DNA of 37,079 nucleotides from NCBI GenBank assembly GCA_031272455.1, contig JAISTS010000042.1, forward strand, positions 1 to 37,079, given 5' to 3'. Under the pieces are notes generated by a model that saw only the letters and a list, made by a program, of their open reading frames with translations, was not told the origin of the DNA and ran no database searches. Below, piece by piece: positions 13,585-34,776 of this stretch. Both the position numbers and the translations under genes were made by a program. The stretch comes from Tannerella sp. (lineage in GTDB: Bacteria; Bacteroidota; Bacteroidia; Bacteroidales; Tannerellaceae). Each line of letters begins with the position of its first letter. Position 1 is the stretch's first letter.

Positions 13585-14517
13585 TCAGCGTATCGACACC
13601 TTGAAGCGCCGGTTATCCTGCACGACGATATAAATACCGTTGGCAAGCGGAATCGAGCTGACGCCTTCAGCTATATTGGCTTTCTTCACAAGCTGCCCTT
13701 CGAGATTATACACCGACAGGGCTGAAGTCTTTGCCGCACTGACATAGAGGCGACCGTCGCTTGCCCAAACCGACTGTTCTTCAATCGGTTCGTTGCCCGT
13801 ATAATCCGCTCCGATATAGACAACCACCGGTCCGGTGATGTTGACTATCTGATATTCATACGTACCGTCGTTGAGCAGGGTGCCCGTTAGCAGTTCGTTT
13901 TCGTTATCGACAACGCGGCTCGTCTTGACGCCAAGTATATCGCGTGCATATTTCACTGTAAATGTGAACGTTGTCGAAGATTCGATATAATGCACTCCTG
14001 CTGCGGGCGTAACGGTTGCTCCGGGTATTTCGGGCAGATAGACGGCGCGAACAAGCGGGGGCAGGGTAGTACCTACGCCGATAGTAATCTTGGTCGGCAG
14101 GCTGGCAAACTGAGTGTTAGCTATCGCTTTATAGCGCACGAGATAAACACCCGGCAGCAGCTCTTCGATAGTCTTACGTCCGGAGTAGGGTGCATCCCAT
14201 GTTGCGCTGCCTTCGGTTTTATACTGCATCGAGTCGTTGACGTTTATTATCTGTCCGTCGCTGTATCCGGCAAACGATTCGCGGACGCCTGTTACATTGG
14301 GCGGGGTGGGTCGTGGTGGGATATATAGCATCTGCGCCGGACTGTTGTAAGCTGCGCCTGCCGAGCTGACTTTGACGATAGAGACGGTCGTATCGAACCA
14401 TTCTTCGGGAATGTCGAGCGTACTGGTGATGCTTTGCGTTGCGCCTCCGTTGAGGCTGTAATTGCCCGCGACGAAATTAATCAGGTCTTCGTCAATATAT
14501 TCGATGCCGACATTGGG
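13585..14517 (-). repeat. C-terminal module, paralogous copy 1
   Basis: Residues 669-978 of this protein align along their full length with residues 1139-1453 of the upstream protein. Shared landmarks are the IDY.NE.LIN start, PRPxPP/PRRPAAPV, ADG/SDGQI, MQY+T, the LPGVYL.RYKAI core, T.TPAAG.H and the VWA..G..Y.. T9SS tail. The boundary is approximate. Confidence 0.75.
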
Positions 14518-16521
14518 AATGGCTTCTTTCACCGTGATAGGAATTGTTACCGTACAGGACAGGTTTGTAAGGTCTTCGACCGTAACTGTAACCGAGGTCA
14601 AGCCCGATGTTACGCCATAAATGGACAGTATTCCGCCGCTCAGCGATGCCGTAGCGATAGCGCTGTTGGGCGGAGTATTTATTGATATGATAGTCAGGGC
14701 GTCAGCCGGTAAGTTCTGGTCGTCGGCTATGCTGTCGCCGTCGAATGTTACCGTTTCGCCAACCGACAGTACGGCAGCGGCTGCAGGGTCGGGTGTAGGC
14801 GTATAAGGCGGCACATATACCGGAATAGTTATGCTGATAATATTGCTGATATTGCGCACTTCGTCTTTGGCAATGATATAGACTGTATGCGTGTTGTTAT
14901 CGGTAAAGTTTATCGACGCAATAGAATCAATATCAATGACATTGGCGTTGTTGAAGCGCGTTTTTGCCGGCAGGGGGAAGAAGTCGGCAAACGAGGTCGG
15001 CGCTGTCGCCGGATCAAGGAGGTAATAGAATTTACCGCGTTTGCTACCCTCGTTCACTTGGAATTTCACCTTTGCGGGATAGTTGCCTCCGCTTATGGAA
15101 CGTATGGCGCCGATAGGTGTAAGTATGGGTGGATCGTCGTCGGCAAGGATTTTCAGCGTAAATGGTGTTGGTGCCGAGCCTTCGTTTGAGCGTGTGGCGA
15201 CGTTTTTTTGCGCCCAGACGTATGCTGTGTGCATAGTGCCGCTGTTGAGATGCACGTATGAAATATTGTCAATCAGCGCACCGCCCGGACCGACGACCTT
15301 AGGCGTATAGATATTGTCGGCGGTGATAAAGAGCGAGTCCATACGGGTGTTGAAGTTATAGTGCATCAGCGCGTCGTAGTCCGACACGATTTTGTAAGCT
15401 ATGCCGTCGGCGTTACTGACTGCGGGTGCTTGAAAACCAAGCACCTCGCCCGGTTTCATCGCTACGGTATCGGTGATTGACGTTGCCGTCTCGTCGTAGT
15501 CGTAATCGAAAGATGACCCGATGGTTGGCGACGTGCCTCCGGTCGTTTTCAGCGTCAGTTTGAAGGCTTTATGTATGCCATTGCCTGCGTGTCCGCCATT
15601 CGGGAGCGCGTCTTCGTCGGTATATATTCCGGCGTTGTCAGCCTGAATCTGGTCAACCTTATTGATGCTGTTGTATTCCATCAGTTCGGCGGCAAACAGG
15701 ATATTGGCAGTGTCTAACTTGAATATCGGGCGCACACCCATCGACACTCCGACGCCTTCAAAATTGATGTCGGCATCGGACTTGACCACGAGTTTGAAAT
15801 CTTCGTTGGCGGCAATTCGCGGAGTAAGCCAGTAGTAAACATTGAAAAATTCGTCCTGCAACGCGCCTTTCAAGCCCGCGCCTCTGAAATTATCCGCACC
15901 TGATGGCATTGCATAAGTAGATGCGGGCAGAGGATTGCCGCCTTTTGTCCAATACACTTTATTGGCGTTCGTAGCGGACAAATCCTGATAAGGCGTGCCC
16001 CAAGGTAGATAAAATTTTGCATTTGCACTTGATGTTCCCGCAACAGAAGTAACGGCATTATTCCAATAATCGGCGCTGGTAGCTGTCGTGGGGACATTGG
16101 CAAGTTCGGCAGCCGTAAAGCTGTTGGTGAACGATGCCCCGTTAAGCCAGCTGTTCAGGCTTGACGAAGCCCAGGTACTGCCTAAAGCGCCGTAGGGCTG
16201 GCTGTCGAGCACATATTCGCTCAGCAGCGTTATCTTGCCGTCTGATGCTTCTTCGCCCATAATACGCCATACTATCGGCGTCTCGGTCGATTCGTAAGCT
16301 GTGGCGGGACCGCGATTGGTATAAGGCACATTATCAAGCACATAATATAAGGATGTAGCGTGTTTATAATGTCCGAAATAGATAAAACTGCTTTGGTGGA
16401 ACAGTCCTCTTGTCGTTGTCATATCCACGCCGTGATTGACTTTCACCTGAGCGAAAACACTCGCCGATGCCAGCGCCATAGCGAGGTAAATTGCATATTT
16501 TATTGACTTATCAGATTTCAT
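13585..16521 (-). CDS. Large T9SS cargo protein with DUF6273-like N-terminal domain
   Basis: This 978-residue secreted protein has a signal peptide (about 1-24, ending FAQ). Residues about 45-275 contain PIVWRIMGEEASDGKITLLSE, then TWASSSLNSWLNG and finally GVSMGVRPIFKLD. That order of W-R-I, L-L-S-E, S-L-N-S-W-L-N and G-V-R-P resembles the DUF6273/lectin-like domain of bacterial surface proteins. Beta-sandwich repeats fill the middle. Residues 669-978 are a module paralogous to the end of the next gene, finishing in a T9SS tail (LSVYNLEGQLV...LANGIYIVV...KVSIR). A surface-adhesion role is inferred. It lies 48 bases behind the 1453-residue gene on the same strand and is probably co-transcribed with it. 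Confidence 0.82.
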   Translation of the reverse strand: MKSDKSIKYAIYLAMALASASVFAQVKVNHGVDMTTTRGLFHQSSFIYFGHYKHATSLYYVLDNVPYTNRGPATAYESTETPIVWRIMGEEASDGKITLLSEYVLDSQPYGALGSTWASSSLNSWLNGASFTNSFTAAELANVPTTATSADYWNNAVTSVAGTSSANAKFYLPWGTPYQDLSATNANKVYWTKGGNPLPASTYAMPSGADNFRGAGLKGALQDEFFNVYYWLTPRIAANEDFKLVVKSDADINFEGVGVSMGVRPIFKLDTANILFAAELMEYNSINKVDQIQADNAGIYTDEDALPNGGHAGNGIHKAFKLTLKTTGGTSPTIGSSFDYDYDETATSITDTVAMKPGEVLGFQAPAVSNADGIAYKIVSDYDALMHYNFNTRMDSLFITADNIYTPKVVGPGGALIDNISYVHLNSGTMHTAYVWAQKNVATRSNEGSAPTPFTLKILADDDPPILTPIGAIRSISGGNYPAKVKFQVNEGSKRGKFYYLLDPATAPTSFADFFPLPAKTRFNNANVIDIDSIASINFTDNNTHTVYIIAKDEVRNISNIISITIPVYVPPYTPTPDPAAAAVLSVGETVTFDGDSIADDQNLPADALTIISINTPPNSAIATASLSGGILSIYGVTSGLTSVTVTVEDLTNLSCTVTIPITVKEAIPNVGIEYIDEDLINFVAGNYSLNGGATQSITSTLDIPEEWFDTTVSIVKVSSAGAAYNSPAQMLYIPPRPTPPNVTGVRESFAGYSDGQIINVNDSMQYKTEGSATWDAPYSGRKTIEELLPGVYLVRYKAIANTQFASLPTKITIGVGTTLPPLVRAVYLPEIPGATVTPAAGVHYIESSTTFTFTVKYARDILGVKTSRVVDNENELLTGTLLNDGTYEYQIVNITGPVVVYIGADYTGNEPIEEQSVWASDGRLYVSAAKTSALSVYNLEGQLVKKANIAEGVSSIPLANGIYIVVQDNRRFKVSIR

Positions 16522-16529
16522 ATCTTTAA

Positions 16530-16556
16530 TTTTTTAATTCTTAATTTTAATTAATC
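16530..16556. repeat. AT-rich microrepeat between two surface-protein genes
   Basis: The 48-base gap is almost pure A/T and repeats TTAATT/TTAATTCTTAATTTTAATT. The minus strand matches the microrepeats at 5070-5100 and 24246-24283. Confidence 0.55.
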
Positions 16557-16569
16557 GTTTGTGAATAAA

Positions 16570-17517
16570 CTACTTAACAATTACTTTATGCGTTTCGCCT
16601 TCGGGCAGCACGACGATATAGACGCCTTTTGCTAACGGCACGGTCGTTATGCCTCCTGCTACTTCCATCCGTTTGACAAGCACTCCGTTGATGGAATAGA
16701 TGTCAACCGCAGTGCGCTCTGTCGCTTCGATGCAGACGGCGCCCTCGTAAGCCCAAACGCCGGTGTTGTCGATGTTTTCGTTGCCGACGGTTTCGGGTCC
16801 GATCACTATCTTGATGTTTTCGCGAACCGAATGGATGATGTAATCGTATCCGCCCGAAATGTTCTTGACGCCCGTAAGCGCTTCTTCCGAGCCTCCGGCA
16901 ACGCGGTCGGTAGCGACTTTCAGCACTCTGCCGTTAAACGTGAGCGTGAAGGCGAAGTCGTCGCCCGACGCTACTTGGTGGGCGCCTGCCGCCGGTGTCG
17001 TTGTTACGCCTTCGACGTAGGGGATAATGATTTCGCGCATTATGGACGGCATATTACGTGTAATCACCTCTATCACAGCCGTATAACTGGCGAACGCCAC
17101 ATTTTGTATTGCCTTATAGCGGATATAATAGACGCCGCCGGGCAGGTCGTCGAGCCGTGTAAATCCGGCGGGTATATCTATCCAGTCGCCTGTCGGACTT
17201 GTGCGATACTGCATCGCGTCGGTAACGCCTGTTATCAATCCGTCGGCAAAGCCTGTTCCCGATTCTTCCTGTACCTGAAGCACGGGTGCGGCGGGACGTC
17301 GCGGCACGGTGATATACTGCGGCAGGCTTCGTGCGCTGCTGTTTGCGGGGTCGGCAGCCTCATTCTTCAGCCCGTTGGCTACGTCGTTCATCCAGCTTTC
17401 GGGGATGGATATGGCGCCGTTGACGGGTTTCACGGGGCTGCCATCATTAAAGACGTAAGCCGTGTCGTTGCTGATATTGATCAGTGTCTCGTTGACATAA
17501 TCAATTATGGCATTTGG
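16570..17517 (-). repeat. C-terminal module, paralogous copy 2
   Basis: Residues 1139-1453 correspond to residues 669-978 of the downstream protein. Copy length is 315 against 310 residues. The copies have diverged a lot, but they keep the same order of conserved blocks, so the pair looks like an old duplication. Boundary approximate. Confidence 0.75.
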
Positions 17518-20500
17518 CGCGGGCAGCTTCGTTACGGTAAACGTAACGCTCAGTGTGCCAATCACGCGGTTATAGCTCTGCACGATGATATCCGCGGTAT
17601 AGGTGCCCTGTGTAAGTCCGGTTACTGGCGCCACTTTACAGGTGGTGCTTGAGCCTCCGGGCAGCGAGCTGAGCATACCGCTCGTATTGAGGGCGAAGGC
17701 GCTTGGGTTGGCGCCGCCGAGCGTTACGTTCAGACCGGGTAGCGTCATACTTGAGCCAAGATTTGTTACCGTAACGGTATTGGGCGTCAGCGTGCCATAG
17801 CCTTCGTTCTTGCTCGGGAAGACATACGAGGGCGAGACGAAAGTCAGGTCGATGCCGATGCCGATGTTATATACTTTAAATGTATAGGTCGTATCGAGAA
17901 TACCTGTGCCGAGATGATTTTTGATCGAGTTGGCGGCAAAATATATCGGGAAAACGCCATCGTTGAACGGTCCGACAACATTAAAGTCGTTTGTTCCGGG
18001 ATAAACCGAAGTGTAGGTTACGCTTGAAGCGGCGGGCAATGTAAATGTGGTAAGCGCATTTGCGGAATTAACCACAGTCGTGCCGTCGCTCTTAAACAGA
18101 GTATGATCAACAGGGTCGTCGCCCGATGCTATGCTGAAGGTGATAGACGGTTGCGGAGTGAAATACACCGTGTCAACAGTCGAGAAGTTGGGCATCGGAG
18201 TGCCGTTGTTAAGCGTCAGCGTTACGATATTCGATGCTATATTGTAGTTGCCGTACTCGTCGTCAACATTGTTTGCCGGAAATTCGACCGACACATTGCC
18301 GCTGCCGTTTGCCTGCACATAGAATTTGTAGGACTTGCCCGGAGTAACCGTCGTAACGCCGCCGACAATCGAGCCGTTCGTTACCGAGAACATCCCCGAC
18401 GCAGGATTGGTAGCAAGCACTTTCGTGTTCGGAACGTCGGCAAACGTTATGGTCAGCTCGACCGGACCGCCGCCGATAGTGCCCGTGGCGGGACTGATAG
18501 TCGGCGCAGGCTTATTGCGGTTGACGTCGTAAGGTCCGAGTACCCCGCTTCGCGAGCCTATCGTATTGACCGTCTCGACAAACCAGTGGATATAATAAAC
18601 GCCGTCGGGCTGCGGGAAAGCGATATTGCCAAGCAGGAAATTATATCCCAACTTGCCGTCAACAGGCGTGGCAGTCATCGCAGTCCAACCGTCTGTGCCA
18701 TCAGTTGGCACCCATCCGGCTGGTCGAGATTCGTCCGGATCGACCTGAGCGGAAGAGATTTTATACCAAACCTTTTTCACGCCGTCGATGTCGGGCGCTC
18801 CGGCGCGGGCATTGAGGCGGACGGTAGAATTGGTTTTGACCGGCGGGTCTGTAATCAGCGCAGGCGGGTCGGGATTGCGCGCTTGCATCTTGGCATTGGT
18901 TGAGCCGGTAACTAATTGCTGGTTTACCTGAATTTTCAGATAGATATATCGCGTGTAAGCCTGTCCCGTCGGGTCGGTAGCTTTCAGCACAACGGTGTCG
19001 ATAAGCGTACCGACGGGCACCTGATTGCGAAGTGTCGCCGTGATAGTGCCGGTCGTGCCGTTAGGTATTGAGGCGGCGTCGCTAAATGGCGGATCGGCTA
19101 CAATAGGACCTTCGAGGTCGAAATAGCGTACATTGGACGAGGGGTCCATCTTGACGTTGAGCCATTGATTGCCAGTATTGGCGATGCTGACCGACATCTT
19201 GGTGCTCGAACCCGATGTGATGTTCGGTCCGTAACGGTTGTAAGTCGCCGTGCCGAAATCAAGCAACGACGCTTGCAGGGTGCACGATGTCGATGGCGTG
19301 CCCGCTGTGGGCGCTACAGCCCAGCCTGTGCTTAACAGGAAGTTGTAGCTTGGAGATGGGTTTTGTCCTAAAACAACATTATACTGTGCTCTTGTAGGCT
19401 CGGTGCTGTTTTTGGGATTATATGATTGATGGACGCTCGGCGCTGACGGATTTGCCATCGTTGTAGTTGCATATATTTGATATGGTTGCAACGGATTGGG
19501 CGAAGGATAGTCGGTAAAAAAGTCAACCGCGCTGTTAGTGTAATAGTTAAGGGTGTCGGGAAGACCGCCGACGATTTGATTTGCTCCGACTGTAGTGCCG
19601 CAGAGCGAACCCAAAGAAGCCAGTTCGGGGAACAGGCTGCTTAAATCAACGAGATGCTGGATTTTTGCATAAACATCAGCTCCGGTTGCATCGGGATTTA
19701 ATTTTGCAGTAAATGCGCTCGTGTTCTGCAAGCCTACCGTTCCGTAAGATACCCGCAGTTTTGCTTTGTTAAGATAGAAAATCTTATCGCAGTTGCCGAC
19801 ATCCCAACATTGAGCGCCAGTGATTGTTGTTGTACCGCCGTAAACTTCTGATACGTCAGCCGAAGGTAAAATAATAATTGTACCGGTTGCCTCCGGATAA
19901 GCGCCGCCGCCGATACCAACACCATCTCTACCATCTAAGAAACCACCCGTCCACGGAGCACCGTTAATTATCTGCGGTGGTATATGATTTCCGGCAGCAT
20001 CGAACAAACCTTTTACCGAAGCCTTAATTTTCCCGCCGGTTATTATGATATACTTGAATTTGCCCTGAGTTGTAATAGCTGTACCTGATCTGTTACCTGC
20101 GCCAATTGCCGCCCCACAGAGTGTATTGCCGTTTTTAAGCAAAGAAGATGCAGTAACATCGCCTCCCGTAATCAGAATATAAGTGCCGTCTTCGCAGAAC
20201 GAGCCTGCGCCAATTGCTGCGCCGCTGTTTGTGCCTGCGGTAGGACCGGTGGAGTCGCAGGTGGCTCTTACTATACCGCCATTTATGGTGATATGTCCGC
20301 CCGCTCCGCCGACTCCGCCCGAACCGCTGCCGCCTCCAATACCTGCGCTGTCGTCGCCACCGGTAGCAATTACAGTGCCACTGTTTATGGTGATATAACC
20401 GGAATTGGTGCCATAATTACTGCCGATTGCAGCACCCGAGACGGTGGTCGTTTGTGTTACCGTAATGCTTCCGTGAGAGTCAATTCCATCGTACGATTCT

Positions 20501-20931
20501 ATTGTCAAATGACCGTTTGGAGCAACTCTGAAAATAGCAGCGCGGTGAGGATTGACGTTTGTGGTCTGACCCATAACGTTAGTACCCATAAGTTTTAGCG
20601 TTACGTATGCGTTGTCCTCGATATTAAATGCATTGCAGTTGGCATCGCCTGTTCTGATAGTTGCATCCTTGAGCGTGATTGTTCCCGAATATCCGGTTCT
20701 AACGGTAACCGGAAAAACTCCTGAGCCTCCATTCCAGCTGCCGACAATCACATAGTCAACGGGGTCGTCCGTAGCGCTTGGATTGATGACAATCGGATGA
20801 GTAACAGATATGTCATATATTACTGTACGGGGCTGAATAGCGCTGACGGACAAAGACATTCCCGTCAGGAGTAGAGAGGCAATCAGGGCTATCCTGAAAT
20901 TGCGTAAACACGTAGTTTTCAATACCTTCAT
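16570..20931 (-). CDS. Giant T9SS cargo protein with glycine-rich beta-helix-like N-terminus
   Basis: The 1453-residue protein opens with a long signal peptide (about 1-31, LIASLLLTGMSLSVSA). Residues about 60-330 show a repeated pattern of the form GAAIG.G...(C/G)...ITI.GG.V.A, with segments SAGIGGGSGSGGVGGAGG, GAAIGAGSFC and GAAIGAGNRSG. This would suit a right-handed beta-helix or carbohydrate-binding stalk. The middle has Ig-like/sandwich repeats, one recurring with PNP..GTITATL or ITFADVPNTK. Residues 1139-1453 are the module shared with the downstream protein and end in a T9SS tail (VDIYSINGVLVKRM, LAKGVYIVVLP, KVIVK). No enzymatic motif is visible. The length is unusual, and it is the lead gene of a two-gene surface operon. 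Confidence 0.82.
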   Translation of the reverse strand: MKVLKTTCLRNFRIALIASLLLTGMSLSVSAIQPRTVIYDISVTHPIVINPSATDDPVDYVIVGSWNGGSGVFPVTVRTGYSGTITLKDATIRTGDANCNAFNIEDNAYVTLKLMGTNVMGQTTNVNPHRAAIFRVAPNGHLTIESYDGIDSHGSITVTQTTTVSGAAIGSNYGTNSGYITINSGTVIATGGDDSAGIGGGSGSGGVGGAGGHITINGGIVRATCDSTGPTAGTNSGAAIGAGSFCEDGTYILITGGDVTASSLLKNGNTLCGAAIGAGNRSGTAITTQGKFKYIIITGGKIKASVKGLFDAAGNHIPPQIINGAPWTGGFLDGRDGVGIGGGAYPEATGTIIILPSADVSEVYGGTTTITGAQCWDVGNCDKIFYLNKAKLRVSYGTVGLQNTSAFTAKLNPDATGADVYAKIQHLVDLSSLFPELASLGSLCGTTVGANQIVGGLPDTLNYYTNSAVDFFTDYPSPNPLQPYQIYATTTMANPSAPSVHQSYNPKNSTEPTRAQYNVVLGQNPSPSYNFLLSTGWAVAPTAGTPSTSCTLQASLLDFGTATYNRYGPNITSGSSTKMSVSIANTGNQWLNVKMDPSSNVRYFDLEGPIVADPPFSDAASIPNGTTGTITATLRNQVPVGTLIDTVVLKATDPTGQAYTRYIYLKIQVNQQLVTGSTNAKMQARNPDPPALITDPPVKTNSTVRLNARAGAPDIDGVKKVWYKISSAQVDPDESRPAGWVPTDGTDGWTAMTATPVDGKLGYNFLLGNIAFPQPDGVYYIHWFVETVNTIGSRSGVLGPYDVNRNKPAPTISPATGTIGGGPVELTITFADVPNTKVLATNPASGMFSVTNGSIVGGVTTVTPGKSYKFYVQANGSGNVSVEFPANNVDDEYGNYNIASNIVTLTLNNGTPMPNFSTVDTVYFTPQPSITFSIASGDDPVDHTLFKSDGTTVVNSANALTTFTLPAASSVTYTSVYPGTNDFNVVGPFNDGVFPIYFAANSIKNHLGTGILDTTYTFKVYNIGIGIDLTFVSPSYVFPSKNEGYGTLTPNTVTVTNLGSSMTLPGLNVTLGGANPSAFALNTSGMLSSLPGGSSTTCKVAPVTGLTQGTYTADIIVQSYNRVIGTLSVTFTVTKLPAPNAIIDYVNETLINISNDTAYVFNDGSPVKPVNGAISIPESWMNDVANGLKNEAADPANSSARSLPQYITVPRRPAAPVLQVQEESGTGFADGLITGVTDAMQYRTSPTGDWIDIPAGFTRLDDLPGGVYYIRYKAIQNVAFASYTAVIEVITRNMPSIMREIIIPYVEGVTTTPAAGAHQVASGDDFAFTLTFNGRVLKVATDRVAGGSEEALTGVKNISGGYDYIIHSVRENIKIVIGPETVGNENIDNTGVWAYEGAVCIEATERTAVDIYSINGVLVKRMEVAGGITTVPLAKGVYIVVLPEGETHKVIVK

Positions 20932-21911: not shown

Positions 21912-21919
21912 TATCTTTG
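21912..21919 (+). promoter_or_regulatory. -7 box for the ammonia-lyase operon
   Basis: TATCTTTG matches TAnnTTTG and lies about 65 bases upstream of the chosen start at 21985. A T-rich stretch about 20 bases upstream is a weak -33 candidate. It stands back to back with the RDD promoter, so both operons fire from a gap of about 170 bases. Confidence 0.65.
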
Positions 21920-21984
21920 CGCGGCTTTAGTGGCGGGATTAGCATAAATCTCGCTGCAATATGCTTAATATAAGATATTTAACG

Positions 21985-23526
21985 ATGAATATAATCGAGA
22001 CTGACGGTTTGACTCTTGCCGCTTTGAAAGAGGTGATACTGCACGGCAAGGGCATCGGACTGTCAACAGATACTAAGAAAAGCGTCGCTGCGTGTTACGA
22101 TTTCCTTGAAAAGTTTTCTGCCGAGAAGATTATCTACGGCATCAATACGGGATTTGGACCGATGGCGCAGTACCGCATTGATAACGACTCGCTTACGCAG
22201 TTGCAGTACAACATCATCCGCAGTCATTCGACAGGTGCGGGCGAGCCGTTGCCCGATGTCTATGTCCGCGCTGCGATGGTGGCTCGTGTCGGCACTCTGG
22301 CTTGCGCCCGTTCGGGTGTGCATCCCGAATTGGTAGATTTGCTGGTCGAGTTTATCAATCGCGGCATTTATCCGATGGTGCCCGAACACGGCAGCGTGGG
22401 CGCGAGCGGCGACCTTGTGCAGCTGGCGCATATAGCGTTGGCGCTGATAGGCGAGGGCGAGGTGCACTACAAAGGCGAATGGCGCAAGGCGGCTGATGCG
22501 CTGAAAGAAAATGGACTTACGCCGTTCAAAATACATATCCGCGAAGGGTTGTCGGTAACTAACGGCACTTCGGTGATGACCGGCATCGGGATAGTCAATA
22601 CGCTATATATCAGGCGTTTGCTCTATTGGGCTGTCGCCGCGTCGGTGTGGATGAACGAGATAGCCGGTTCGTACGACGATATGATGTCGGACGAGCTGAA
22701 CGGCACAAAACGGCATACCGACCAGCGGCTCGTTGCCGAATGGATGCGTACGATAGCCAAAGGCAGTTCGCGCCTGCAAAAACGCGAGATCAAGCTATAC
22801 GACAGTGCGCACGCCAACGAGAAAGTTTTCACCGACAAGATACAGGCTTACTACTCACTGCGTTGCGTGCCTCAGGTGCTTGGTCCGGTGCTGACCACGC
22901 TGCGGCAGGCGGAAGCTATTCTCGTTGACGAAGTGAACTCGGCGAGCGACAATCCGATAGTTGACCCTGTGAGCGGCAATGTCTATCACGGCGGCAATTT
23001 CCACGGCGATTATATCGCTATCGAAATGGATAAGCTGAAAATCGCCGTAACCAAGCTTACGATGCTGATGGAGAGGCAGTTGAACTATCTCTGCCACGAC
23101 CGTATCAACGACCTGCTGCCGCCCTTCCTTAACCTCGGCGTGCGCGGGCTGAACTATGGCTTGCAGGCGGCGCAGTTCACCGCCACCTCGACGACAGCCG
23201 AAAACCAGACGCTCTCGTCGCCGATGTCGATCCACAGCATACCCTGCAACAACGACAATCAGGACGTCGTGAGCATGGGAACGAACGCGGCGCTGATGAC
23301 AAAAACGGTGGTCGAGAACGCCTTTCAGGTAACGGCAATACATTTTATGGCGCTGACGCAAGCGGTTGACTGTCTGGCGATTGCTAACAAGCTCTCGCCC
23401 GCCGTGCGCAGGATTTACGACGATGTTCGCCGCCTTTATCCCGCATCAGCCGAAGACAAGCCGCTGTATGGCGCAGTAGCGTCGGTAAGGAATTATTTAC
23501 ATGATAACGAACTTGATTTAAAATGA
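21985..23526 (+). CDS. MIO-type aromatic amino acid ammonia-lyase, probably tyrosine ammonia-lyase
   Basis: The 513-residue protein belongs to the HAL/TAL/PAL family. The cyclised MIO prosthetic group forms from A140-S141-G142 in GSVGASGDL. Other family blocks are YGINTGFGPMAQ at 51-62 with the catalytic Tyr, REGLSVTNGTSVM, YYSLRCVPQVLGPV, SASDNPI, VYHGGNFHGDYIA and TSTTAENQTLSSPMS. From memory, the Flavobacterium johnsoniae tyrosine ammonia-lyase shares these blocks and much of the flanking sequence. I also recall it having the same IIRSHS motif (here S80-H81), which the histidine lyases have as well. The product is thus probably p-coumarate, with urocanate the main alternative. I prefer the ATG at 21985 over 21961, because MNIIETDGL resembles that homologue's N-terminus. 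It is the first gene of a five-gene operon. Confidence 0.88.
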   Translation: MNIIETDGLTLAALKEVILHGKGIGLSTDTKKSVAACYDFLEKFSAEKIIYGINTGFGPMAQYRIDNDSLTQLQYNIIRSHSTGAGEPLPDVYVRAAMVARVGTLACARSGVHPELVDLLVEFINRGIYPMVPEHGSVGASGDLVQLAHIALALIGEGEVHYKGEWRKAADALKENGLTPFKIHIREGLSVTNGTSVMTGIGIVNTLYIRRLLYWAVAASVWMNEIAGSYDDMMSDELNGTKRHTDQRLVAEWMRTIAKGSSRLQKREIKLYDSAHANEKVFTDKIQAYYSLRCVPQVLGPVLTTLRQAEAILVDEVNSASDNPIVDPVSGNVYHGGNFHGDYIAIEMDKLKIAVTKLTMLMERQLNYLCHDRINDLLPPFLNLGVRGLNYGLQAAQFTATSTTAENQTLSSPMSIHSIPCNNDNQDVVSMGTNAALMTKTVVENAFQVTAIHFMALTQAVDCLAIANKLSPAVRRIYDDVRRLYPASAEDKPLYGAVASVRNYLHDNELDLK

Positions 23527-24245
23527 GATATGCACTTGTAACAGGAGGGTCGCGAGGCATTGGCAAAGCCGTCAGCCTGCGTTTGGCGGAAACGGGATAT
23601 CCGGTTCTGATCAATTACCGGTCGAACCGCGAAGCAGCCGAAGACACCCTCAACCGCATAGTCGAGGCGGGCGGACAGGCTGAACTGATGCCGTTCGATG
23701 TGGCTGACGGCGCGGCGGCGGAGAGCTGTCTGTCGGCTTGGCAGGAAGCGCATCCCGACGATTATATCGCCGTGTTGGTCAATAACGCAGGCGTCCGTCG
23801 CGACAACCTGCTCTTCTGGATGGCTGACGAAGAATGGGCTGAGGTGCTCAATACCAGCCTTAACGGGGCGTTCCGCATCACCCGCAATGTCGTTAAGTAT
23901 ATGATGAACAAGCGCTTCGGGCGGATAATAAATATAGTGTCCATTTCGGGACTGAACGGGATGGCTGGACAGGCAAACTATGCCGCCGCCAAAGCCGGAC
24001 TGATAGGCATCACCAAAGCCCTCGCCCTCGAAACGGCAAAAAAGAAGGTAACGGTCAATGCCGTCGCACCCGGATTTATCGAAACGGATATGACGAAAGA
24101 CCTTAACCACGAAGAATTGCAAAAAATCATCCCCGCAGGACGCTTCGGGCAGCCCGAAGAAGTGGCGGCGCTCGTCGGCTTCCTTGCATCCGAACAGGCT
24201 TCGTATATCACGGGGCAGGTGGTTGTGGTTAGTGGAGGGCTTTGA
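23523..24245 (+). CDS. FabG-like 3-oxoacyl-ACP reductase
   Basis: The 240-residue short-chain dehydrogenase has the cofactor loop TGGSRGIG at 7-14, NNAG at 87-90, N114, and the catalytic S140, Y153 and K157 in VSISGLNGMAGQANYAAAK. The closing motif is PGFIETDMT. This matches the NADPH-dependent FabG class, which reduces 3-oxoacyl-ACP to the 3-hydroxy form. The ATG overlaps the lyase stop by four bases (ATGA), a sign of translational coupling. In this operon it would serve the ACP-bound polyketide-like chain rather than general fatty acid synthesis, an inference from context. No dehydratase gene follows, so the next step must be supplied elsewhere. Confidence 0.9.
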   Translation: MRYALVTGGSRGIGKAVSLRLAETGYPVLINYRSNREAAEDTLNRIVEAGGQAELMPFDVADGAAAESCLSAWQEAHPDDYIAVLVNNAGVRRDNLLFWMADEEWAEVLNTSLNGAFRITRNVVKYMMNKRFGRIINIVSISGLNGMAGQANYAAAKAGLIGITKALALETAKKKVTVNAVAPGFIETDMTKDLNHEELQKIIPAGRFGQPEEVAALVGFLASEQASYITGQVVVVSGGL

Positions 24246-24283
24246 AGAATTGAGAATTGAGAATTGAGAATTAAAAATTAAAA
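24246..24283. repeat. GAATTGA tandem microrepeat inside the operon
   Basis: The heptamer GAATTGA is repeated in tandem and runs into GAATTAAAAATTAAAAGAT. The 67-base gap is unusually long for this operon, where other junctions are -4, 14 and 6 bases. It resembles the microrepeats at 5070-5100 and 16530-16556. Confidence 0.7.
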
Positions 24284-24312
24284 GATAAAAGATAATAACT
24301 TAGATAAGAGAT

Positions 24313-25530
24313 ATGAGGCGTGTAGTTGTAACGGGAATAGGGATTTATGCTTGCATCGGGAAGAATCTTGATGAGGTGCGCGATTCGCTGTACAGGGGCA
24401 AGTCGGGCATCGGCATCGAAGAGATACGCAAGGACTACGGCTATCGTTCGCCGCTGACGGGCATAGTCGAGCGTCCGGCGCTGAAAGGTGTGCTCGAACG
24501 CCGCCTGCGCGTGGGTCTGGCGGAAGAAGCCGAATATGCCTACGTTGCGACAGCCGAAGCGATGCAGACGGCAGGCATAGATATGGACTATCTCGACCGT
24601 AATGAAGTGGGGATTTTCTACGGCAACGACTCGTCGTCGAAAGCCGTTATCGAAGCGCATAACACTGTGGCGGAGAAACGCGATACCACGCTGCTCGGCT
24701 CAGGCGCTGTTTTCCAGTCGATGAACTCCACCGTTACGATGAACCTCTCGACCATCTTCCGTTTGCGTGGCATTAATATGACCATCAGCGCCGCCTGCGC
24801 CAGCGGCTCACATTCCATCGGACTGGGCTATATGTTTATCAAACAGGGACTTCAAGATGTTGTGCTCTGTGGCGGCGCTCAGGAAACGAATTTCTATTCG
24901 ATGGGCAGCTTCGACGCACTGAGCGCCTTCTCCATCAGAATAGACGAACCGACAAAAGCCTCGCGCCCCTTCGATGCTGCGCGCGACGGACTGATACCCA
25001 GCGGCGGAGCAGCCAGCCTTATCCTCGAAGATTACGACCACGCCATTCGTCGCGGAGCGACAATATATGCCGAGATAGCGGGCTACGGCTTCTCATCTAA
25101 CGGCAAAAATATCTCGCAGCCGAGCGACGACGGATGCTGTATAGCTATGGAACGCGCCCTCAACGACGCCCGTATAGCTGCCGCCGAGGTCGATTATGTC
25201 AACGCCCACGCCACCTCGACGCCGCAGGGCGATATGTACGAAGCTATCGCGCTCGACCGGCTCTTTGGCGCCACACGCCCCTTGGTCAGCTCCACCAAGT
25301 CGATGACCGGACACGAATGTTGGATGGCGGGCGCCAGCGAAGTGCTATACTCCATACTGATGATGCAGAACGATTTCGTCGCGCCGAACATCAATTTTGA
25401 GACGCCCGACGAATATTCCGCAAAACTGAATATCGCCGCTAAAAAGGTGGATACGAAGCTCGACGTCGTACTGTCGAACTCGTTCGGCTTCGGCGGCACC
25501 AACAGCGCATTACTGATAAAACGAATATAA
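24313..25530 (+). CDS. FabF-like 3-oxoacyl-ACP synthase (ketosynthase)
   Basis: The 405-residue thiolase-fold enzyme has the full Cys-His-His set of chain-extending ketosynthases. C162 lies in SAACASGSHSIG, H299 in NAHATSTPQGD, and K329 and H334 in STKSMTGHECWMAG. The N-terminus RRVVVTGIGIYACIG and the tail NSFGFGGTNSALLIK are canonical. It should condense malonyl-ACP with a growing acyl-ACP. With the lyase upstream, a p-coumaroyl starter is plausible. Only one ketosynthase is present, and there is no inactive chain-length-factor partner. Full aryl polyene loci generally carry several ketosynthases. The next gene, acp, starts 14 bases downstream. Confidence 0.9.
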   Translation: MRRVVVTGIGIYACIGKNLDEVRDSLYRGKSGIGIEEIRKDYGYRSPLTGIVERPALKGVLERRLRVGLAEEAEYAYVATAEAMQTAGIDMDYLDRNEVGIFYGNDSSSKAVIEAHNTVAEKRDTTLLGSGAVFQSMNSTVTMNLSTIFRLRGINMTISAACASGSHSIGLGYMFIKQGLQDVVLCGGAQETNFYSMGSFDALSAFSIRIDEPTKASRPFDAARDGLIPSGGAASLILEDYDHAIRRGATIYAEIAGYGFSSNGKNISQPSDDGCCIAMERALNDARIAAAEVDYVNAHATSTPQGDMYEAIALDRLFGATRPLVSSTKSMTGHECWMAGASEVLYSILMMQNDFVAPNINFETPDEYSAKLNIAAKKVDTKLDVVLSNSFGFGGTNSALLIKRI

Positions 25531-25544
25531 AAACAACTTATATA

Positions 25545-25790
25545 ATGGAAAGAACAGAAATAGAAGACATTGTAAAAAAGTTCCTTATTGAGGAAATCGA
25601 AGTTGACGAGGATGTTATCCGTCCCGACGCCTTGCTGAAAGACGACCTGGGCATCGACAGCCTTGATTTTGTTGACATTGTTGTTATCGTCGAACGCAAT
25701 TTCGGATTCAAAATCAAACCCGACGAGATGACCGGAGTGCAGACGCTCGGTCAGTTCTGCGATTACATCGAATCGAAAACAGGAGCCTGA
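25545..25790 (+). CDS. Acyl carrier protein
   Basis: This 81-residue acidic protein has the phosphopantetheine site S39 in DDLGIDSLDFVDIVV. It has the usual four-helix ACP pattern and a C-terminal end (GQFCDYIESKTGA). A phosphopantetheinyl transferase would load it, and it would then carry the chain for the reductase and ketosynthase next to it. A dedicated ACP inside the operon suggests a pathway separate from housekeeping fatty acid synthesis. The next gene begins 6 bases after its stop. Confidence 0.92.
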   Translation: MERTEIEDIVKKFLIEEIEVDEDVIRPDALLKDDLGIDSLDFVDIVVIVERNFGFKIKPDEMTGVQTLGQFCDYIESKTGA

Positions 25791-25796
25791 CCCGCT

Positions 25797-26657
25797 ATGT
25801 CAGCGAAAAGGCAATGGAAAGGAAATACCGGTGGCAATCTGTTGGGACAGAACGCCTTAATCCTTCTTTTCCGGCTGCTTGACGTCCGCGTCGGCTATGC
25901 TGCGATGGCGTTAATCGTACCGTTTTATATGCTTTTTGCCCGCAAAGGCTATAAGGCGATTTACCGGTATTACCGTCGGCGTTGGCAGATGTCGCCGTGG
26001 CGGTCGTTTATCAACACTTATCGCAATCACTACCGTTTCGGACAGGTCATACTCGACCGTTTTGCCGTTTATGCCGGACGTCGCGACTGTTTCAACGTCG
26101 AAATCGAAGGCAACGAGCATTTTAGCCGTCTGACAGCAGGCGAGAAAGGCTTTATCATAGCAGGCTCGCACGTCGGTAATTTCGAGATATGCGGCTATCT
26201 GCTCAATCCCGAACCGAAAACCATCAACGCCCTTGTTTTTGCAGGCGAAACGAGAACCGTCAGCGAGAACCGCGCCCGCGTGCTTACGCCTCATAATGTG
26301 CGACTTATACCCGTCCTCGACGATATGTCGCATATCTTTGCTATCAACGACGCCCTCCGTCACGGGCAGATCGTCAGTATGCCCTGCGACCGTAGCGCAG
26401 GCTCGGCTAAAAGCGTAGAATGTGATTTTCTTGGCGCCAAAGCCGACTTTCCCGCCGGTCCGTTCACTCTGGCGCGTACTTTCGACGTCGAGATACTTGC
26501 ACTTTTCGCCGTCAAAACCGCTGCGTTGAAATATAAGATTTATGTGATGCCGCTCGGTGCGGAAAACAGCGCCGCCGAATATGCCGAACGACTGCAAACC
26601 ATCGTCAACCGCTATCCCGACCAGTGGTTCAACTTCTACGAATTTTGGAAGCCGTAA
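25797..26657 (+). CDS. LpxL/HtrB-like lipid acyltransferase
   Basis: The 286-residue membrane-associated protein has a hydrophobic segment near 20-47 and the lysophospholipid-acyltransferase motif H125-VGNF-E130 (HX4E) in AGSHVGNFE. The pattern MPCDRSAGSAK and FPAGPFTLAR that follows is also typical of the LpxL group. LpxL uses acyl-ACP to acylate lipid A. Acyltransferases of this kind in aryl polyene and flexirubin loci are thought to attach the finished chain to a membrane lipid. Being in the operon with its own ACP favours that second role. The gene is followed after 32 bases by a convergent lipoprotein gene, which marks the end of the operon. Confidence 0.85.
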   Translation: MSAKRQWKGNTGGNLLGQNALILLFRLLDVRVGYAAMALIVPFYMLFARKGYKAIYRYYRRRWQMSPWRSFINTYRNHYRFGQVILDRFAVYAGRRDCFNVEIEGNEHFSRLTAGEKGFIIAGSHVGNFEICGYLLNPEPKTINALVFAGETRTVSENRARVLTPHNVRLIPVLDDMSHIFAINDALRHGQIVSMPCDRSAGSAKSVECDFLGAKADFPAGPFTLARTFDVEILALFAVKTAALKYKIYVMPLGAENSAAEYAERLQTIVNRYPDQWFNFYEFWKP

Positions 26658-26689: not shown

Positions 26690-27583
26690 CTATTCCTGTT
26701 TTCCGGCTAATTTGCTGTCGATATACAGGATTTTCTTTTCCGATTTTTCTTTCTCGATACGCATCATCTCGATGTCGCTCAAGACGGCGGCGAGGTCGTG
26801 TGTAGCGCGGATGGCGTCTTTGTCGCTTTCAGAGAGATAGAGCGAAAAGGGCTTGCCGCCGGTGTATTCGGCTTTGATGCGCGTCTTGGCGTCGGAGCTG
26901 TAAACGAAATTCACCGCATTGATGCAGTTGGCGCCCTTGTAAGTAACGACTTCGGTAGTGTTGCCGAGGTCGGTAAAGCGATAATTCATCCCGCCGTCGT
27001 AGGGGATAGTCGCGGTCTCGGCAAACGCACCGTCGGCAGCGCTCATTTTCAATCCCGTATGGTTGATCGGACGGCTGCCGAAATAGACGCTGGCAAGGTA
27101 AATCTCGCCTTTCTCATCGACTCCGCAACGGATATAACTGCGCTCTACGTTGTTCTCGACCGTTTTTTTCTGCCATACATAATTGCCGATATCTTCGTAT
27201 TCGGCATCTTTCTCAAAGACAAAACCGCGTTTCAGCTTTTCGGCTTCTTCGAGGCGTATGGGCGTCAGGCTATCGCAATACTCAATGTTGCGCACGCTTT
27301 CGCCGCGCTCGACCAACCGCATCAGCGTCAGCGCCTCGCGCAGCACATCGACTTCGCGCGGAAAATTAAGCCGCAGCGTGTCAATAGCATTTTTTGCTGC
27401 CGTAAACTGCTGACTTTCGTAATATCCCTGCGCCACAGCAAGTTGCGCCCGCGCCTCCTTTTCCTTGCCGCAAGCCGACAACAGGCATAGCGCCATCGCC
27501 ATGCAACAGCAGGTTAAGGCATTTACTAACTGCGCTTTATGTTTATAAAACTTGGTTTGTCTCTTGTATTTTTTCGTTTCCAT
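26690..27583 (-). CDS. Bacteroidales lipoprotein of unknown function
   Basis: The start is taken at 27583 (297 residues), because the longer ATG at 27604 is inside the promoter box. The N-terminus has a basic stretch, then a hydrophobic core rich in Cys and Met, ending LCLLSAC with C38 as the lipidation site. About residues 40-85 look like helical repeats (EARAQLAVAQGYYESQQFTAAKNAI). The rest is a compact domain with KKTVENNVERSYIRCGVDEKG. A coiled segment (IEMMRIEKEKSEKKILYIDSKL) closes the protein. I do not recognise a family. It converges on the acyltransferase gene and is divergent from the polyprenyl synthase gene. Confidence 0.7.
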   Translation of the reverse strand: METKKYKRQTKFYKHKAQLVNALTCCCMAMALCLLSACGKEKEARAQLAVAQGYYESQQFTAAKNAIDTLRLNFPREVDVLREALTLMRLVERGESVRNIEYCDSLTPIRLEEAEKLKRGFVFEKDAEYEDIGNYVWQKKTVENNVERSYIRCGVDEKGEIYLASVYFGSRPINHTGLKMSAADGAFAETATIPYDGGMNYRFTDLGNTTEVVTYKGANCINAVNFVYSSDAKTRIKAEYTGGKPFSLYLSESDKDAIRATHDLAAVLSDIEMMRIEKEKSEKKILYIDSKLAGKQE

Positions 27584-27601
27584 AGTGCTGCAAATTTCCT
27601 G

Positions 27602-27609
27602 CAAACATA
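27602..27609 (-). promoter_or_regulatory. -7 box for the lipoprotein gene, deciding its start
   Basis: The minus strand reads TATGTTTG. It lies 18 bases upstream of the ATG at 27583 and overlaps the ATG at 27604, so the downstream start is favoured. Confidence 0.6.
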
Positions 27610-27665
27610 CTATCTATTTTTCAATCTGCCAAATTTATTCGTTTTCCCTTTTCACGAAAAATATG

Positions 27666-27673
27666 TACTTTTG
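27666..27673 (+). promoter_or_regulatory. -7 box for the polyprenyl synthase gene
   Basis: TACTTTTG (TA-CT-TTTG) lies 15 bases upstream of the ATG pair at 27689/27692. The start is thus close to the transcription start. Longer in-frame starts further upstream lie before this box. Confidence 0.6.
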
Positions 27674-27688
27674 CAGGCTGTAAACTCT

Positions 27689-28666
27689 ATGATGACAGAG
27701 ATTGATATAATAAAACAGCCTGTAACAGAGCAATTTGCGGAGTTTGAAGCCGCTTTTGAGGCTGCCCTTTCAAGCGAAACGCCGTCGATATGCGCCTCTA
27801 TTACTTCGCTGCACCGTTCGGGTGGCAAGCATATTCGCCCCCTGCTGCTGTTGCTTACTGCGCGGGCTTGCGGACAGGTTACGCCTGCCGCCGTACAGTC
27901 GGCTGTGCTGCTCGAACTGCTGCATACCGCCTCGCTCGTGCACGACGATGTGGTTGACGACACTTCGCGCCGCCGCGGTACGCCCTCGCTCAACGCCCTG
28001 CACGGTAACGCAGTGGCTGTGCTCGTCGGCGATTTTATCCTCGCCAGTATGATGATTCGCGCCATCGCAACTGTTGACAAGCAGATTGTCAGTATGATAG
28101 CCGCCCTCTGTCGCGATATGGCGGAAGGCGAGATCCGGCAGTTGGACAACACCGCCGAGGCAGCCCTATCCGAAGCCGACTATCTGGCTGTGCTCGAGAA
28201 AAAAACCGCCGGACTGCTCTCTGCCTGCACCGAGATAGGCGCCATCACCGCCGGAGCGACGCACCCGACGCAGCTGCTCTGCCGCTCGTTCGGCGACCTG
28301 ATGGGTATCTGTTTCCAGATAAAAGACGATATCTTTGATTATTTCGACAATGCCGAGACGGGCAAACCCAGCGGCAACGACCTGCGCGAAGGCAAAGTTA
28401 CCCTGCCACTGCTCTACGCGCTCTCAACAGCGCCCGACGCCGAGAAAACCCGCTATCTCAGCATACTGCAAAACAAACAGTTTACCCCCGACAACACCGC
28501 CGCCCTGATACGCTTCGCCAAAGAGCGCGGCGGAATAGAATATGCCGAGCGCCGAATGAACGAATACAAAACGCGAGCCACAGCCCTAATCGACAACCTG
28601 CCCGCATCCGACGCCAAAGACAGCCTGCTGCGACTGGCGGAATTTATCACCGCGAGGAGACATTAA
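27689..28666 (+). CDS. Long-chain (E)-prenyl diphosphate synthase
   Basis: The 325-residue enzyme has both aspartate-rich motifs, DDVVD at 86-90 and DDIFD at 213-217, plus GGKHIRP at 45-51 and RRGTPSLN. Both motifs bind Mg2+ and the diphosphate of the substrates. The residues before the first motif (HTASLVHDD) are small, as expected in enzymes making long chains (about C35-C40) for menaquinone side chains. I therefore prefer octaprenyl/heptaprenyl synthase to farnesyl synthase. The frame continues upstream to 27539, but that is before the promoter. An ATG at 27692 is equally possible. Confidence 0.88.
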   Translation: MMTEIDIIKQPVTEQFAEFEAAFEAALSSETPSICASITSLHRSGGKHIRPLLLLLTARACGQVTPAAVQSAVLLELLHTASLVHDDVVDDTSRRRGTPSLNALHGNAVAVLVGDFILASMMIRAIATVDKQIVSMIAALCRDMAEGEIRQLDNTAEAALSEADYLAVLEKKTAGLLSACTEIGAITAGATHPTQLLCRSFGDLMGICFQIKDDIFDYFDNAETGKPSGNDLREGKVTLPLLYALSTAPDAEKTRYLSILQNKQFTPDNTAALIRFAKERGGIEYAERRMNEYKTRATALIDNLPASDAKDSLLRLAEFITARRH

Positions 28667-32583: not shown

Positions 32584-34776
32584 ATGAAAAAGGTATTTAT
32601 TGCAGGGCTTGCCGCGTTGACGGGCGCCGTCGGGCTTACTGCGCAGGAGCTTGACACGGCGCGTGTCTATCAGCTCAATGAGATTGTTGTTTCTGCCGTT
32701 GCGGCACGACAGGAGACGCCCGTCGCGTTCCAAAATCTTTCCGCTGCGCAGCTGGCGACGAATAATACGGGGCAGTCGCTGCCGTACCTCTTCGCCGGCA
32801 CGCCATCGCTGACCCTCACTTCCGACGGGGGCAACGGCATCGGCTATGCCACTTTCCGCGTGCGCGGTACGGACGCCAACCGCATCAATTTCACGGTTGA
32901 CGGTGTCCCGGTTAACGACAGCGAGAGCCACGGCGTGTTCTGGGTCAATATGCCCGACTTCGCCTCGTCAACGGGGCAGGTGCAGATACAGCGCGGGGCG
33001 GGCACTTCGACCAACGGCGCGGCGGCGTTTGGCGCTACGGTGGCGATGCAGACGATGAAACCGTCGCTTTCGCCATACGCCGAGGCGATTTCATCGGCAG
33101 GCTCGTATGGCACGTTTACCAACACGGTGAAGGGCGGGACGGGCCTTGTTGGCGAGCATTTCGTGTTCGACGCACGCTATTCAAACGTGAAAACCGACGG
33201 TTACATCGAGCGGGCGCGGGCGGAGATGAACTCGTATTATGCTTCGGCGGCGTACTATGGCGGTCAGACGATGCTCAAATTCCAGACTTTCGGCAGCAGC
33301 GAGAACACGTATCAGGCATGGAATGGCGTTGACGCCGCTATGCTCGCCACCAACCGGCGCTATAACAGTTGCGGCGCTTATGACGACGATGGCGTTACCA
33401 AGTTCTACGACAACCAGACCGACAACTACTGGCAACACCACTACCATCTCCTTGCCACGCAGCGTTTTAACCGTTTCGATATGAACCTCACCCTCCATTA
33501 CACCGACGGGAAAGGCTATTACGAAGATTATAAGGAAGACGCCAAATACGCATCCTACAAGCTGCCAAACTATACCGACGGCGATGGAAACGTACTGAAA
33601 CGTACTGACCTCGTCCGCCGCAAATGGCTGCGTAACGATTTCTACGGTGGCATCTTCCGCCTTAATTATACGCTCGAACGCCTGCAAGCCACCTTTGGAG
33701 CGTCGGTCAATAACTACGTCGGCGACCATTTCGGACGTGTGATGTGGGTGCGTACCGCTTACATTCTGCCCCAGCCCGACTACGAATATTACCGTAACCG
33801 CGGCGAAAAGCTCGATTACAACGCCTATCTAAAAGCCTCGTACCACTTTGCTGACGGTTTCAACGCCTACGCCGATATGCAGTACCGCGGCATTGATTAC
33901 CGCATCAACGGCAGCGACGACAAAGCCGGCGACAACCTGCACGTAGCCCGCAAGTTCGATTTTTTCAATCCCAAAGCGGGTCTGAACTACTCGCAAGGCG
34001 GACATAACGCCTACGCCTCGTTTGCCGTCGCCCACCGCGAGCCTAACCGCGACAATTTCACCGAAAACGGTCCCTCGGCGCAACCCACTTTCGAGACGCT
34101 CCACGACTGGGAAGCGGGTTACACGTTTACCCGTCCGGCGTTCAGCGCAGGCGTCAACCTGTATTATATGGACTACGACAACCAACTGATCCTCAACGGG
34201 AAAATCAGCGAAATAGGCGAGCAGCTGACCTCGAATATCCGCAGCAGTTACCGTGCGGGCATCGAGCTGACTGCGGGTGTGCGGCTCGCGCCCTGCCTCC
34301 GCTGGGAAGGCAATGCCACGCTGAGCCGTAACAAAATACGCGATTTCATCGAGTATGTGGACACCTACGACGCCGACTGGAACGACCTTCCGCAGACGGA
34401 AAACAGCCTCGGCACGACGGATATAGCCTTTTCGCCGTCGGTCATCGCAAACAGCCGTTTTGACTTTGCGCTGAAAGGCTTCTCGGCGTCGTTTTCATCG
34501 TCGCATGTCGGGCGTCAGTATCTCGACAACACCTCGTCGCGCACGAGCAGTCTCGACCCGTATTTCGTCAATAACCTGCGCGTCGGGTACGCTTTCAAAA
34601 CGCAGTATGTCAAAGAGATATCCATAGACCTAAGCATCAACAACCTATTCAACGAGATGTACGAAACGAACGGCTGGGTGTGGACCTACATCCTCGGCGG
34701 CGAGCGTATGCAGGAAGCAGGCTACTTCACGCAAGCCGGAACGAATGCGATGGTGAGGGTGGGGTTAAGGTTTTGA
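32584..34776 (+). CDS. TonB-dependent outer-membrane receptor, probably for thiamine
   Basis: The 730-residue protein has a signal peptide (MKKVFIAGLAALTGAVGLTAQ). A TonB-box/plug region follows, with YQLNEIVVSAVAARQE and then YATFRVRGTDANRINFTVDGVPVNDSESHGVFW and QIQRGAGTSTNG. The beta-barrel fills the rest and ends in an aromatic residue (VRVGLRF). The family imports large or scarce ligands using TonB energy. The TPP riboswitch directly upstream points to thiamine or a precursor as the substrate, a link established in Bacteroidetes for riboswitch-controlled receptors. The 3' end overlaps the stop of the convergent AlbA_2 gene by 12 bases. Confidence 0.9.
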   Translation: MKKVFIAGLAALTGAVGLTAQELDTARVYQLNEIVVSAVAARQETPVAFQNLSAAQLATNNTGQSLPYLFAGTPSLTLTSDGGNGIGYATFRVRGTDANRINFTVDGVPVNDSESHGVFWVNMPDFASSTGQVQIQRGAGTSTNGAAAFGATVAMQTMKPSLSPYAEAISSAGSYGTFTNTVKGGTGLVGEHFVFDARYSNVKTDGYIERARAEMNSYYASAAYYGGQTMLKFQTFGSSENTYQAWNGVDAAMLATNRRYNSCGAYDDDGVTKFYDNQTDNYWQHHYHLLATQRFNRFDMNLTLHYTDGKGYYEDYKEDAKYASYKLPNYTDGDGNVLKRTDLVRRKWLRNDFYGGIFRLNYTLERLQATFGASVNNYVGDHFGRVMWVRTAYILPQPDYEYYRNRGEKLDYNAYLKASYHFADGFNAYADMQYRGIDYRINGSDDKAGDNLHVARKFDFFNPKAGLNYSQGGHNAYASFAVAHREPNRDNFTENGPSAQPTFETLHDWEAGYTFTRPAFSAGVNLYYMDYDNQLILNGKISEIGEQLTSNIRSSYRAGIELTAGVRLAPCLRWEGNATLSRNKIRDFIEYVDTYDADWNDLPQTENSLGTTDIAFSPSVIANSRFDFALKGFSASFSSSHVGRQYLDNTSSRTSSLDPYFVNNLRVGYAFKTQYVKEISIDLSINNLFNEMYETNGWVWTYILGGERMQEAGYFTQAGTNAMVRVGLRF

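Follow-up and report, generated by a model that had tools for sequence, protein, structure and literature searches.

A flexirubin-type five-gene operon of Tannerella sp. as the probable first segment of an aryl polyene pathway dispersed over six contigs

The contig JAISTS010000042.1 of a Tannerella sp. draft genome (2.75 Mb, 139 contigs, 85.5% complete), here called C93, was analysed over its whole length of 37,079 bp, hereafter the window, and carries an operon of five open reading frames (ORFs) headed by a FlxA-type ammonia-lyase gene. Sequence comparison makes it very probable that this operon forms the opening segment of an aryl polyene (APE) pathway of the flexirubin type, whose genes would be divided among seven fragments on six contigs of this genome and would work in trans. 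On the best reading, the operon supplies 4-coumarate together with part of the chain-building enzymes. The pathway and its enzyme families are already known; it is the layout that is unusual.

The five genes all lie on the plus strand, with junctions of -4, 67, 14 and 6 nt, and their GC content resembles that of the flanking DNA. The first encodes a FlxA-type tyrosine ammonia-lyase, predicted to convert L-tyrosine to 4-coumarate (21961..23526, +; NF053541, 809.2 bits, cut-off 700; PF00221, 534 bits), and the second a FlxB-type 3-ketoacyl-ACP reductase of the SDR family (KR; 23523..24245, +; NF053542, 381.1 bits, cut-off 340), so that the NCBIfam models for flexirubin FlxA and FlxB both recognise their genes above cut-off. 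They are followed by a FabB-like ketosynthase (KS), KS1 (24313..25530, +; PF00109/PF02801), an acyl carrier protein (ACP), ACP1 (25545..25790, +; PF00550, 47.2 bits), and an LpxL-type acyltransferase (25797..26657, +; PF03279, 53.7 bits). Read by eye in the translations, the MIO ASG motif of the lyase is GSVGASGDL, the C-H-H residues of KS1 are intact (Cys in AACASGS, His in NAHATS and MTGHEC), ACP1 has its DSL motif and the HX4E motif of the acyltransferase is HVGNFE. A single Bacteroidota -7 promoter box, TATCTTTG (21912..21919, +), begins 49 nt before the first start codon, and no TTG at the -33 spacing was found upstream of the operon; about 0.07 such boxes are expected by chance per 160 nt of one strand in the window. 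On all these points (the five co-directional genes with their junctions, the single box, the enzyme types and their motifs) the ORF coordinates, Pfam families and motifs bear out the initial annotation, whose term "aryl-polyene-like" was right and can be made more precise as flexirubin-type; in a flexirubin in the strict sense the polyene is joined by an ester bond to a dialkylresorcinol, and darA and darB as well as a pigment with a KOH colour shift and a fitting mass are characteristic of it. It had also noted the lack of a ligase, dehydratase, thioesterase, chain-length factor (CLF) and exporter, and the remaining window proteins that were scanned, some of the overlapping small ORFs included, contain none of these. 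An ABC ATPase (4419-5069) sits 17 kb from the operon.

The "minimal" or "stripped-down" cassette that the initial annotation had drawn from this lack is not supported, since further pathway genes are spread over five other contigs of the same genome (C22, C26, C65, C70 and C84). The ligase that it had suggested looking for elsewhere is present on C22 as a FlxY coumarate ligase (NF053551, 702.7 bits, cut-off 520), preceded by a gene for a 121-aa protein. C26 carries a FlxJ family methyltransferase (NF053543, 619.1 bits, cut-off 560) and, 6.7 kb from it, a PF01553 acyltransferase. On C65 (25,448 bp) a dehydratase-like gene, a 4HBT thioesterase, a ketosynthase, a 193-aa protein, a second acyl carrier protein (ACP2) and the ketosynthase KS2 run in one direction, while C70 (31,973 bp) holds a KS-like gene (PF13723), an EamA-type small membrane protein, LolA, a LolB2-like protein and a fusion of dehydratase and GT2 glycosyltransferase (DH::GT); C84 contributes an MMPL::acyltransferase exporter and two FAD oxidoreductases. 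Flx equivalog models are thus exceeded on three contigs (FlxA and FlxB on C93, FlxY on C22, FlxJ on C26). KS2 matches the PDB entries 6qsp_A (188 bits) and 7f28_B (182 bits), 7F28 being presumably the ApeO-ApeC entry, and FabF-type entries with up to 203 bits. One C65 gene had first been labelled a CLF, a label that was rejected; it retains the Cys and both His by eye and is therefore treated as a further ketosynthase. The 193-aa protein matches none of the Pfam and NCBIfam families at the usual threshold and its best PDB match is unconvincing (E=0.004); in some relatives it is read as one ORF with the preceding ketosynthase. The initial annotation had said that a full complement of pathway genes immediately beyond the window would argue against its proposal; such a set is present in the genome but does not stand beside the operon as far as the contig shows (21.9 kb on one side and 10.4 kb on the other).

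In order to place this layout, we compared the surroundings of FlxA in related genomes. FlxA exceeds its cut-off in 58 of the 295 genomes from the order; the figures are 38 of 123 for the family and 22 of 41 for the genus. The surroundings of all 57 other order-level hits were fetched, and 44 of these loci have 8 kb or more of sequence on the downstream side of FlxA. The five-gene order, for which the initial annotation had proposed a search in neighbouring genomes, does recur, but in 33 of the 44 loci the other four operon genes follow within 10.5 kb together with one or more C65-type genes; the remainder comprises three loci with the five genes only (L055, L062, L098), one with the lyase alone and seven other partial sets. 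Among the companions in this order sample are an O-methyltransferase (18 loci) and a B12-radical SAM protein (14 loci), mostly between the acyltransferase and the dehydratase and in some loci between KS1 and ACP1. FlxY-like genes, 53-65% identical to that of the single-contig genus genome G371, occur within the sequence retrieved around FlxA or around its cluster at 11 loci (L060, L085, L088, L096, L115, L120, L166, L177, L181, L229 and L354); that of L354, the sole one of the 11 put to the FlxY model, scores 714.6 bits. An ORF upstream of FlxA in L232 (1270-2961), first taken as a ligase ("lig563"), has no Pfam match and was dropped from the locus count. A second, named sample (80 loci kept from 296, 59 of them with 8 kb downstream) gave the contiguous form in 25 loci, the five genes only in four (L109, L155, L158, L184), the lyase alone in nine and other partial sets in 21. 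The contiguous form is therefore common but not universal. Some of the five-only loci have genes inserted among the five, and the L098 sequence stops directly after the acyltransferase. In L055 (4420-7000; genome G242) a window-type operon has its KS1 and ACP1 genes separated by three others, one of them of a DNA methylase family. Elsewhere (G346:C160, 17818-19305) a FlxA gene is reported with one in-frame TAG in an otherwise contiguous cluster.

It could be argued from the five-only loci of both samples, and from four genus members with the same five genes and without the rest alongside (G383, G385, G388 and G394), that the operon is a stand-alone minimal cassette which makes a short aryl-acyl lipid with the help of housekeeping fatty acid enzymes, and ApeR-type ketosynthases are indeed reported to give shorter products in the available part of PMC8358021. 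We regard this as improbable, given that the remaining pathway is found in the same genome, that the ligase is itself a FlxY, and that all four of those sister genomes also carry a second block of pathway genes.

This second block, on a separate contig in each of the four sisters, runs uninterrupted from the methyltransferase through the exporter, and its gene order is matched by the methyltransferase piece of C26, by C65, by C70 and by the MMPL piece of C84 in our genome. A pair of FAD genes follows the exporter in three of the four sisters; it was not seen in G388. The other genus members with FlxA, 21 in all, comprise these four, 14 in which FlxA adjoins a 121/128-aa gene of the ligase operon, and three with neither arrangement. 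The protein of this gene (L341 9163-9528; L203 4595-4981) is without known family, and in our genome its 121-aa form lies directly before FlxY. The two blocks are at least 8.5 kb apart in G383, at least 5.8 kb in G388 and at least 4.1 kb in G377, where the start of the first contig falls within the KR gene.

Such a scatter might be produced by the assembly, if one normal cluster had been interrupted by chimeric or broken contigs. The genome is a draft, the C65 piece stops 1.5 kb from its contig end, and in G385 and G394 the blocks stop 0.3-1.3 kb from contig ends, leaving only 1.7 and 1.6 kb, so that they could be adjacent there. In our genome, however, the pieces that adjoin one another in the sister block are separated by at least 26 kb (acyltransferase to O-methyltransferase), 28 kb (O-methyltransferase to dehydratase), 6.1 kb (KS2 to KS-like gene) and 53 kb (DH::GT to exporter), with other genes intervening; the pathway genes are thus not adjacent, their pieces lying on six contigs. 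Furthermore, G371 (3.01 Mb) is independently dispersed: its pathway genes occupy six loci with a smallest gap of 58.9 kb, namely the exporter at 174 kb, the FlxA-ligase operon at 834 kb, a KR-ACP1-acyltransferase-methyltransferase-dehydratase-thioesterase-KS-ACP2 series at 899-905 kb, KS2 with the KS-like and SMR genes at 2005-2008 kb, KS1 at 2778 kb, and LolA, LolB, dehydratase and glycosyltransferase at 2859-2861 kb. Since a genome in one contig shows this, dispersal in the genus is more than an assembly effect, and we consider an artefact very improbable.

The promoter boxes speak against an artefact as well. In our genome a TAnnTTTG box lies 19-49 nt before the first start codon of six of the seven fragments (the window lyase, the C65 dehydratase, the C70 KS-like gene, the C26 methyltransferase, the C26 acyltransferase and the C84 exporter), and it is mostly absent from the same genes inside blocks. 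Counted across loci of the genus and the family (L201-L237, L241-L340 and L342-L360, with identical upstream sequences merged and genes with less than 500 nt of upstream sequence dropped), 34 of 46 fragment-leading genes have the box as against 12 of 333 internal genes; relatedness is uncorrected in these counts, and "leading" means that no query gene lies within 400 nt upstream, where an unqueried neighbour is possible. FlxA, with a box in 24 of 36 cases, was kept out of the 46. Inside blocks the box precedes the methyltransferase in 0/29, the dehydratase in 0/32, the KS-like gene in 1/28 and the exporter in 1/14 cases, and in five sister genomes it is found before the methyltransferase that leads the second block (5/5) and before the dehydratase, KS-like gene and exporter in 0/5, 0/5 and 1/4 cases, respectively. 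Because most fragments carry their own -7 box, we propose that they are separate transcription units. The pieces might also be remnants of a decaying pathway on the way to loss, as could be suspected from the 19 of 41 genus genomes without a FlxA hit over cut-off, many of which are incomplete. This too seems unlikely: no internal stops were reported in our genome's matches to FlxA, the ketosynthases, the ligase, the acyltransferase, the methyltransferase, DH::GT or the exporter, the ketosynthase motifs are intact by eye and boxes stand ahead of most pieces.

Taken as one dispersed pathway, the fragments can be assigned the following roles. FlxA of the window would deaminate tyrosine to 4-coumarate, which FlxY (C22) would activate; in the available sections of PMC3992019 the Chitinophaga pinensis FlxA and FlxY were assayed as tyrosine ammonia-lyase and 4-coumarate-CoA ligase, respectively. 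KS1, thought of as a FabB/ApeR-type enzyme, with ACP1, and the C65 ketosynthases with ACP2, would elongate the coumaroyl starter, FlxB would reduce the ketone and the hotdog proteins of C65 and C70 would dehydrate, while FlxJ (C26) may methylate the ring. Esterification of the polyene and its transport towards the outer membrane could then fall to the window acyltransferase, to the DH::GT and LolA/LolB-like proteins of C70 and to the MMPL::acyltransferase of C84, with the fragments running as separate transcription units in trans.

Several observations weigh against this reading. The top PDB matches of KS1, for which we propose the role of ApeR by analogy, are housekeeping FabB-type entries (4xox, 304 bits; 1dd8, 299 bits), which score higher than the ApeR-type entries 4ewg (249 bits) and 7f27 (243 bits), the last of which we take to be the ApeR entry of the authors of PMC8358021. 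The FabZ-like dehydratase that the initial annotation had suggested seeking elsewhere in the genome is represented on C65 by a hotdog protein, but this scores 29.8 bits on the FabZ model (cut-off 113) and has no Pfam match, its assignment being backed by the place of the gene within the cluster. As a CLF, the C70 KS-like protein is weakly assigned (7f28_A, E=0.0024). The C70 LolB2-like protein, at 33.0 bits, stays below the cut-off of 60 of the NCBIfam LolB2-type model, which the L232 gene passes at 97.2, and this protein is not counted as pathway-defining. The C22 fragment lacks a -7 box and starts 9 nt after a peptidase gene; among fragment-leading genes of relatives the box was found before 0/3 KS-like and 0/3 exporter genes (as well as 0/1 thioesterase and 0/1 LolA genes), and in G371 before only two of the five such genes looked at. 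The C65 and C70 pieces may also lie as close together as 6.1 kb in the draft assembly. Our confidence in this reading, and in the history of repeated fission given below, is slightly reduced because KS1 is closer to FabB than to ApeR and because contiguous clusters are less widespread among the loci of the named sample.

In regards to the origin of the dispersal, simple vertical descent was not borne out by the FlxA, KS1 and KS2 trees. Our genome and its sisters form one group with 100/98 support in both the FlxA and KS1 trees, and this group stands closer to members of a different genus in the family than to its remaining congeners; of the nearby genomes, G299, G311 and G312 have a contiguous cluster, and in G305 and G310 the cluster was not seen whole. 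The KS2 tree unites our genome with five sisters (93/85), and the window-like copy of G376 falls outside. Since the group sits with another genus, the clusters were probably broken independently in the window lineage and in the remainder of the genus, or else the block moved between genera. We lean, with some reserve, towards a history in which a type II polyketide pigment pathway that forms one block in many relatives underwent repeated fission within one genus, giving between two and seven fragments that preserve the gene order, most of whose new left ends bear a -7 promoter, with the pathway steps kept.

The other scanned genes of the window look unrelated to the operon: a fucosidase, a LuxR-type regulator, the ABC ATPase already mentioned, an SNF-family symporter, a PLP enzyme, Dus, peptidases, an RDD protein, a polyprenyl synthetase, a TonB-dependent receptor and a Schlafen-like protein; no tRNA was found. 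The polyprenyl synthetase (27539-28666, +) lies downstream of the operon, and in the sister G394 a 71%-identical one (L355, 7204-8181, -) precedes the same operon by 4.8 kb, the ligase operon lying further upstream, so that part of the neighbourhood is common to both. Two large proteins of 978 and 1453 aa are encoded at 13585-20931 (-), the first with a match to a T9SS sorting-tail model (26.3 bits, cut-off 23) and to DUF6273, the second with a sub-threshold beta-helix match. The Schlafen/AlbA_2 domain protein (34765-36465, -) has a Fic-like C-terminal domain.

These results remove a minimal aryl-lipid cassette as a tempting false lead and suggest that cluster-based genome mining sees only fragments of the pathway in this genus. 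The genus and its relatives offer a graded natural series, from one block through two blocks to as many as seven fragments. It allows the gain of promoters at breakpoints to be followed and bears on why pathway genes stay clustered; if the fission series is true, the value of clustering would become measurable apart from that of the pathway. Our literature searches found no description of this dispersal, the relevant texts, including PMC9248904, PMC8358021, PMC10734526 and PMC3992019, having been available in part.

Compared with the flx cluster of C. pinensis (flxA-flxY), as far as the available part of PMC3992019 describes it, our genome shares the FlxA/FlxB-type first genes, several ketosynthases, a FlxY-type ligase, LolA, a glycosyltransferase and an exporter; the FlxJ-family name is taken from NCBIfam. 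C. pinensis has one flx cluster and a separate dar locus, whereas here the flx genes alone, to which the comparison is confined, form seven fragments on six contigs. With the APE clusters, in the portion of PMC8358021 at hand, the genome shares a FabB-type ketosynthase beside the KR, as ApeR stands beside ApeQ, and two ACPs; there 4EWG is called an ApeR homologue, ApeR is described as FabB-like and 6QSP is named as an ApeO-ApeC entry. KS2 matches 6qsp_A and 7f28_B, the second presumably also from this KS-CLF pair, although FabF-type entries score slightly higher, and the dispersed layout is again a difference. Finally, the contiguous flx-type clusters of relatives (L054, L069, L222, L232) match this gene set and its order on the downstream side of FlxA, but they, and others like them, form one block of about 13-17 kb in place of several loci, and L222, L228 and L229 have no match to the window acyltransferase.

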